Source: an uncultured Selenomonadaceae bacterium (lineage in GTDB: Bacteria > Bacillota > Negativicutes > Selenomonadales > Selenomonadaceae). Taken from it: a DNA stretch of 34,555 bases. The position numbers were made by a program, and so were the translations under genes. Shown piece after piece: positions 19,940 through 20,392 of the stretch. The notes beneath the pieces are model-generated. The model was not told where the DNA came from. It made no database searches and saw only the letters and a list, made by a program, of their open reading frames with translations. The first letter of the stretch is position 1. Each line of letters starts with the position of its first letter. Where the stretch lies: NCBI GenBank assembly GCA_905236725.1, contig CAJOCT010000010.1:1-34555 (forward strand), read 5' to 3'.

Positions 19940-19968
19940 GATCGACAGATCAACGGATCGACAGATGG
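19940..19968 (-). repeat. 8-base repeat tract downstream of the four-helix-bundle gene (inverted partner)
   Basis: On the plus strand the units read GATCGACA, GATCAACG, GATCGACA and the beginning of GATGG (from 19940). They are in inverted orientation relative to the tract at 20359-20392, so the inserted gene lies between inverted 8-mer arrays. The tract ends at the stop codon (19969-19971). Confidence 0.7.
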
Positions 19969-20343
19969 CTAGTTTTTGGCGAGTGTTTGAGTCAATTTTC
20001 TAATCAATACATTCAGCATTTTGCCGACTTCATTGCAAAGACCTACAGAAACGGAAATCTCGCTTTCGTCTACATAGCCGATTCTTACACAAAGTTGCAA
20101 CTGAGTTTCGAGTTCGCTTTGTGAACCGCGAGCAATGGCGAGAAATTTTATAAACTCTCGGGTTGAATTTCTGCCTTGACCCTCGGCAATATTTGAAGGT
20201 ATAGAAACAACTGTACGGCGCATTTGATCTGAAAGTGCGTAAGTCTCCGTTTTCGGCAGAATTTTTACAAGTCTGTAAATCTCAACCGCCAAGTCCATCG
20301 ATTTTTGCCAAACCGTAAATTCCTTGTAACTTCGTAAAGTCAT
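19969..20343 (-). CDS. Four-helix-bundle protein (S23 / 23S rRNA intervening-sequence protein family)
   Basis: 124 residues. The family signature is unmistakable: EFTVWQKSMDLAVEIYRL (helix 1), LSDQMRRTVVSIPSNIAEGQ (helix 2), REFIKFLAIARGSQSELETQ (helix 3), then an amphipathic C-terminal helix with NEVGKMLNVLIRKL. Relatives are encoded in intervening sequences of 23S rRNA genes, and the same fold is used by the accessory protein bAvd of diversity-generating retroelements, where it forms a basic nucleic-acid-binding pentamer. Here the gene is inserted between atpG and atpD, read in the operon direction with its own AAAGGA site, and bounded on both sides by inverted 8-base repeat arrays. No reverse transcriptase is nearby. 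It behaves as a small insertion; its function here is unknown. Confidence 0.9.
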   Translation of the reverse strand: MTLRSYKEFTVWQKSMDLAVEIYRLVKILPKTETYALSDQMRRTVVSIPSNIAEGQGRNSTREFIKFLAIARGSQSELETQLQLCVRIGYVDESEISVSVGLCNEVGKMLNVLIRKLTQTLAKN

Positions 20344-20358
20344 AAAAATTCAATCCTT

Positions 20359-20392
20359 TGTCGATCTGATTAACTGTCGATCTGTCGATCTA
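20359..20392 (-). repeat. 8-base repeat tract upstream of the four-helix-bundle gene, at the atpG stop
   Basis: On the plus strand the units read TGTCGATC, TGATTAAC, TGTCGATC, TGTCGATC, then TACTC. Read in the operon direction it begins inside the TAG stop of atpG (20390-20392) as TAGATCGACAGATCGACAG. Confidence 0.75.

Follow-up and report, generated by a model that had tools for sequence, protein, structure and literature searches.

An S23 gene framed by inverted octamer arrays between atpG and atpD of a Selenomonadaceae bacterium as a candidate member of a REPIN/RAYT-like element system

The S23/IVP proteins have, to our knowledge, had no known function since the intervening sequences (IVSs) of 23S rRNA were described, and we know of no cause for the intergenic heptamers of cyanobacteria, Beggiatoaceae and other bacteria. 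In the IVS of Coxiella, the ORF is preceded by GACAGAT in three tandem copies, and a stem of 28 bp is cut by RNase III (PMC4990558). Tandem heptamers lie between operon genes as TAACTGA in Beggiatoaceae (PMC4679880) and as the heptameric repeats of cyanobacteria (PMC4692102); for the former, a repeat-binding protein was suggested as a mobile element, with none named (PMC4679880), and no link to S23 was found described in either paper, as far as searched. REPIN-RAYT systems (PMC3116915) combine dispersed short inverted-repeat hairpins with a low-copy gene that is flanked by them, tracks them in its presence, and encodes a Y1/HUH (REP-associated tyrosine) transposase. The S23 protein family, the 23S rRNA IVSs and the intergenic heptamers were thus known already; what is new is the link of S23 genes with inverted heptad arrays and with arrays throughout the genome, which is absent from the searchable papers (no S23-heptamer array link was found in the open-licence literature).

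The window (the whole stretch of 34,555 nucleotides analysed here, from an uncultured Selenomonadaceae bacterium) contains, in minus-strand order, atpG (20390-21499; PF00231, 5e-87), an array, an S23 gene of 124 codons for a four-helix-bundle protein (19969-20343), an inverted array, and atpD (18508-19953 in the ORF list). The product is clearly a member of the S23/IVP family, matching PF05635 over the full profile (E = 2.7e-39, 134.1 bits against a curated cut-off of 33.8) and TIGR02436 (131.9 bits against 24), with PDB 2gsc and 2rld as related solved structures; a complete S23/IVP gene does split atpG and atpD, as a preliminary description of this DNA had stated. Avd/bAvd of diversity-generating retroelements belongs to a related fold family, but the window protein falls below both curated cut-offs (bAvd Pfam, E = 1.2e-5, 26.2 bits against 40; DivGenRetAVD, E = 4e-8, 33.4 bits against 80). 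No recognised nuclease or transposase domain was found in the protein, its family matches being PF05635, TIGR02436 and the weak Avd models. Several polar residues are strongly conserved among 120 S23 proteins (K14, Q40, R43, S47, N51, E54, E77 and E105). A phage origin was rejected for want of any phage match, and a role as a defence system was rejected after comparison with the PADLOC anti-phage models, none of which matched; no known structured RNA was matched by Rfam anywhere in the window.

The left array in transcription order (20359-20392, minus strand) consists of about four copies of the 8-mer GATCGACA, and on the plus strand (20359-20391) TRF gives a period of 8 and 4.1 copies, TGTCGATC TGATTAAC TGTCGATC TGTCGATC. 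The right array (19939-19966) has TGTCGATC on the minus strand, complementary to the left array, and 3.5 copies of period 8 on the plus strand, GATCGACA GATCAACG GATCGACA GA (TRF). Both arrays are imperfect, each with one variant unit, and together they form inverted arms of 25-28 nt, 79-84% complementary and about 395 nt apart, which bears out the earlier observation of an 8-mer array faced by its complement across the gene. A single array of such TRF score is not rare, 27 rows of at least 30 being present within the window. When the transcript is folded, the arms close a stem around the S23 ORF, at -126.8 kcal/mol and with a z of -2.9. The left array opens with the stop codon of atpG, TAG (20390-20392), and the right array stops just short of the atpD ribosome-binding site. 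The window has one copy of a recurrent element of about 450 bp, S23 gene and inverted tandem arrays, which lies between the stop codon of an upstream operon gene and the ribosome-binding site of the gene that follows. The listed atpD ORF begins within the right array; the true start is probably near 19919, judging from alignment with the empty alleles of relatives.

Like the IVSs of Coxiella and Leptospira (PMC4990558), the window element has an S23 ORF flanked by complementary ends that pair into a stem, and short tandem repeats at those ends recall the heptamers found in Coxiella and in the 23S inserts of the same class. These class inserts are S23 genes within 23S rRNA in four genomes, G148, G176, G188 and G109 (L316-L321, L327, L324, L302), located by Rfam LSU matches in the first three and by flanking rRNA sequence for L302, and their arms are heptads (for example TTGGATG TTGGACT TTGGACA TTGGACG, with AGTCCAACATCCAA downstream). 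Unlike an IVS, the window element lies between atpG and atpD, outside any 23S rRNA gene, its unit differs from those of other loci, and the genome also has many hairpins that lack S23.

S23 occurs three times in the genome. Besides the window copy, L002 lies between an AAA-ATPase ORF and small ORFs, and L003 separates the genes for the small and large hydrogenase subunits. All three, hence both of those outside the window, lie between inverted arrays, with a different unit in each (the arms of L003 are of the TAACTGA type). In the genus, 44 of the 66 genomes surveyed have S23, and most of the roughly 65 genes sit between inverted 7/8-mer arrays, nearly always co-directional with both neighbours, at recurrent junctions that include atpG|atpD, hydrogenase small|large, murD|murG, cheB|cheA, X|glmU, trpB|argC, secY|adk and carA|carB (gene names as read off the flanking proteins). 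A scan of named genomes found most S23 genes to lie in inverted 7/8-mer arrays in about ten phyla as well, among groups such as Bacteroidota, Clostridia, Treponema, Chloroflexota, Planctomycetes, Omnitrophota, Kiritimatiellae and Synergistota. Of 127 S23 loci with both flanks available, 66% have upstream and downstream flanks that match as inverted repeats (score of at least 12), a rate that falls to 4.7% for mispaired flanks and to 0.3% for random spans from the same loci; a period-7 array is found in 76% of the upstream and 58% of the downstream flanks but only 1.4% of controls, and period 8 in 6%. Among arms at one junction in different species, the median match is 15 within a locus and 7 when different loci are compared (p = 3e-13). 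The unit varies from locus to locus, yet is shared by the two arms of each, and the arms therefore change in concert. Of the 60-nt stretches that precede S23, 65% contain stops in all three frames, a figure that drops to 39% when the same bases are shuffled; the excess fits arrays that close the reading frame upstream wherever they land.

Arrays are not confined to the flanks of S23 genes, and those elsewhere track S23-bearing genomes, contrary to what repeats unlinked to the gene would show. In samples of 20-kb stretches, nine S23-free genomes have 0-1.2 arrays of 7/8-mers per 100 kb, whereas S23-bearing genomes have 7.8 (G000), 17.8, 18.8, 17.6, 3.7, 10 and 0, the last being an exception, G043, with S23 present and no array in its sample; arrays of other periods are near background in the same kind of sample. 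Together with genus-wide pattern searches, this sampling shows that solo arrays and short S23-less hairpins are found for the most part in genomes with S23, and that their units match those of the resident S23. Many of the solo arrays are short hairpins built of inverted arrays, and dozens of hairpins share one unit at unrelated junctions. A search of 66 genomes for the window unit found 29 occurrences in G000 and 95 in G012, and none in the remaining 64 genomes (40 from the genus, the rest from the class); both genomes with the unit also have an S23 gene flanked by it (in G012, L005, flanked by GATCGAT units). The eight genomes with an AGCTTT-flanked S23 are the top eight of 66 in AGCTTT arrays, with one tie at eighth place; AATTAGG arrays have a median of 54 in genomes with a clade-B S23 and 0 in the rest (p = 2e-5), and in a family of Clostridia, AGTGRNY arrays occur in 6 of 23 S23-bearing and none of 37 S23-free genomes (Fisher p = 0.002), in tests of unit matching that ignore kinship and for which independent contrasts point in the same direction, being too few for significance. 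Three genomes (G007, G058 and G026) are exceptions that lack a clade-B S23, yet have dozens of AATTAGG arrays. In G012, the reversed control pattern for AATTAGG matched 64 times, which points to another heptamer family there.

The window itself has three putative non-autonomous copies: an S23-less hairpin of inverted arrays between atpE and atpF (24544-24623, minus strand), with the unit GATCGA[CT]A as in the flanks of the window S23; a solo array or hairpin between trpD and trpB (32360-32433, minus strand), with a unit, (TAGTTGTCAG)/(CTGACAACTA), like the arms of L003 at the hydrogenase junction; and a solo array of AGTGGACAGTGGACAGTG (5381-5438, plus strand), with a unit like the arms of L002. 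A further 8-mer array, 4.5 copies of GATGGAAA (4338-4373, plus strand), overlaps the start of a substrate-binding lipoprotein ORF (4342-5382), the start region of which would be altered by changes in copy number, possibly as a form of phase variation.

Dispersed hairpins here share their repeats with the flanks of a putative trans-acting gene, S23, as in REPIN-RAYT, the closest functional parallel (PMC3116915): in both, short inverted-repeat hairpins are dispersed through the genome and accompanied by a low-copy gene that is flanked by them and whose presence tracks them. The differences are that S23 is a four-helix-bundle protein rather than a Y1/HUH transposase, and that the repeats are tandem 7/8-mers with a unit that diverges between loci and species. 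In being tandem and in lying between operon genes, the repeats also resemble those of Beggiatoaceae and cyanobacteria, and cyanobacterial S23 genes do sit in heptamer arrays. We consider it probable, at roughly 60%, that the arrays and S23 form a REPIN/RAYT-like element system in which S23 takes the place of the transposase and the 23S rRNA IVSs are the members located in rRNA. S23 would be a trans-acting factor that recognises the array hairpins, whether as RNA or as single-stranded DNA, and promotes the spread of copies to further operon junctions; full copies would be autonomous elements and short hairpins non-autonomous ones, in parallel to RAYTs and REPINs, with no recognisable transposase. 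Of the preliminary proposal that the protein may act on the repeat DNA or RNA, the association has gained support from co-distribution and unit matching, and from the co-distribution we infer that S23 may act on arrays in trans. Insertion would be tolerated because an array ends the reading frame that enters it from upstream (repeats of 7 or 8 nt, not being multiples of 3, tend to place stops in all frames), and also because RNase III could cut the stem as it does in 23S rRNA, with the flanking genes remaining translatable. By analogy, such a cut may split the atp transcript, instead of leaving it intact as the preliminary description had supposed.

S23 might instead be a passenger, persisting inside arrays that are spread by another enzyme, such as a Y1/HUH transposase, or by hairpin-prone replication slippage. 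Such a role would suit a protein that lacks a known transposase domain and whose genes are far outnumbered by solo arrays, but it is unlikely in view of the near absence of arrays from S23-free genomes, the match of array units to the resident S23, and the presence of S23 genes in such arrays in many phyla. Nor is a reverse transcriptase supported as the driver: PF00078 is missing from several genomes rich in S23 and arrays and is abundant in S23-free G008, and S23, unlike Avd, shows no association with reverse transcriptase.

The atpG|atpD junction of relatives, compared across genomes that are mostly MAGs, is empty in 20, with the stop codon followed by 11-18 nt to the atpD start; the gene is therefore not fixed at this site, and filled alleles are found in nine genomes of the tree. 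A single clade for the S23 genes of these nine is rejected (AU p = 9e-51; p = 1e-4 within the main clade alone), which means at least three arrivals of S23 at this junction within the genus; one more is seen outside it, in a Ruminococcus flavefaciens MAG (L252). The copy of G014 nests among cheB|cheA copies and shares the unit ACTAGGA with the cheB|cheA copy of G007, as if gene and arrays had moved together in one shift on the tree from cheB|cheA to atpG|atpD. These empty and filled alleles, the repeated arrivals, and an anatomy that recurs at dozens of junctions and across many phyla give good support to the small mobile unit proposed in the preliminary description. Elsewhere in the tree, most S23 genes group by junction, and movement must therefore be infrequent and long residence common; no near-identical recent copies were found at different sites of one genome outside rRNA operons. 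The identical S23 copies of G148 and G176 were rejected as recent transposition, being located in duplicated rRNA operons.

The grouping by junction would also be expected of a domesticated regulatory module, inherited vertically, in which S23 and its hairpin tune the neighbouring operon genes (as an RNase III site, by attenuation or by translational coupling) and selection keeps the arms complementary. The arms do remain complementary despite change in sequence, copies lie between co-directional genes, and S23 is under purifying selection (dN/dS 0.03-0.19 for pairs where it could be computed), but the patchy presence with clean empty sites, the several separate origins at one junction, the occurrence of S23 in rRNA as well, and the dozens of hairpins with one unit at unrelated junctions make this account improbable. 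That an ordinary orphan gene occupies a tolerant junction among incidental repeats, as the array-less guests at atpG|atpD of relatives could suggest, can practically be dismissed, given inverted arrays around S23 at 66% of loci against 0.3% of random spans and their recurrence in many phyla.

The guests in question (L040, L044, L052, L038, L042, L046 and L118) are VOC/glyoxalase-like genes and small acidic exported proteins with no evident arrays, and they mark atpG|atpD as a general insertion spot in the genus. G027, the closest relative by atpG (95%), was rejected as a clean empty site, a different guest ORF following its atpG. Short S23-less solo arrays at atpG|atpD of G036 (L036) and G063 (L055) are possible remnants or non-autonomous insertions. 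Some copies that seemed to split HsdS were found at hsdS|hsdR junctions with HsdS complete, and the methylase genes at L205, L206, L211 and L223 are possible candidates for splitting by S23.

The data tie S23/IVP proteins and intergenic heptamer repeats to one element family. A broader proposal, to which we would give slightly less than an even chance, is that of a class of bacterial mobile elements in about ten phyla, with autonomous copies (S23 and inverted heptad arrays) and non-autonomous copies (short heptad hairpins), spread through operon junctions and rRNA genes by a four-helix-bundle protein in place of a transposase or reverse transcriptase, and generating the heptamer repeats of many genomes. 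Plasmids carry such genes as well: of eleven plasmid S23 genes (ten cyanobacterial, one from Riemerella), most lie within inverted heptamer arrays, no array being seen in the flanks of L269. Two of the cyanobacterial copies (L265 and L269) run antisense to the genes on either side, whereas those in the window's genus are nearly always co-directional. Two others (L268 and L270) have the arrangement cas6|S23|cas4, on plasmids of Anabaena sp. 90 and Pseudanabaena galeata, and because both have heptamer arrays on either side (direct rather than inverted in L270), S23 in CRISPR loci (PMC3936711) may be an insertion rather than a CRISPR component.

Other features of the window include a 130-aa ORF between atpH and atpA (23075-23467, minus strand), with a signal-peptide-like start and no Pfam match, which would be a second guest gene of this atp operon. 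A 291-aa ORF between trpB and trpA (30281-31156, minus strand) reads like the C-terminal part of a putative DNA methyltransferase, and proteins encoded at both ends of the contig have RTX-like GGxGxD repeats (28-711, plus strand; 33556-34425, minus strand).
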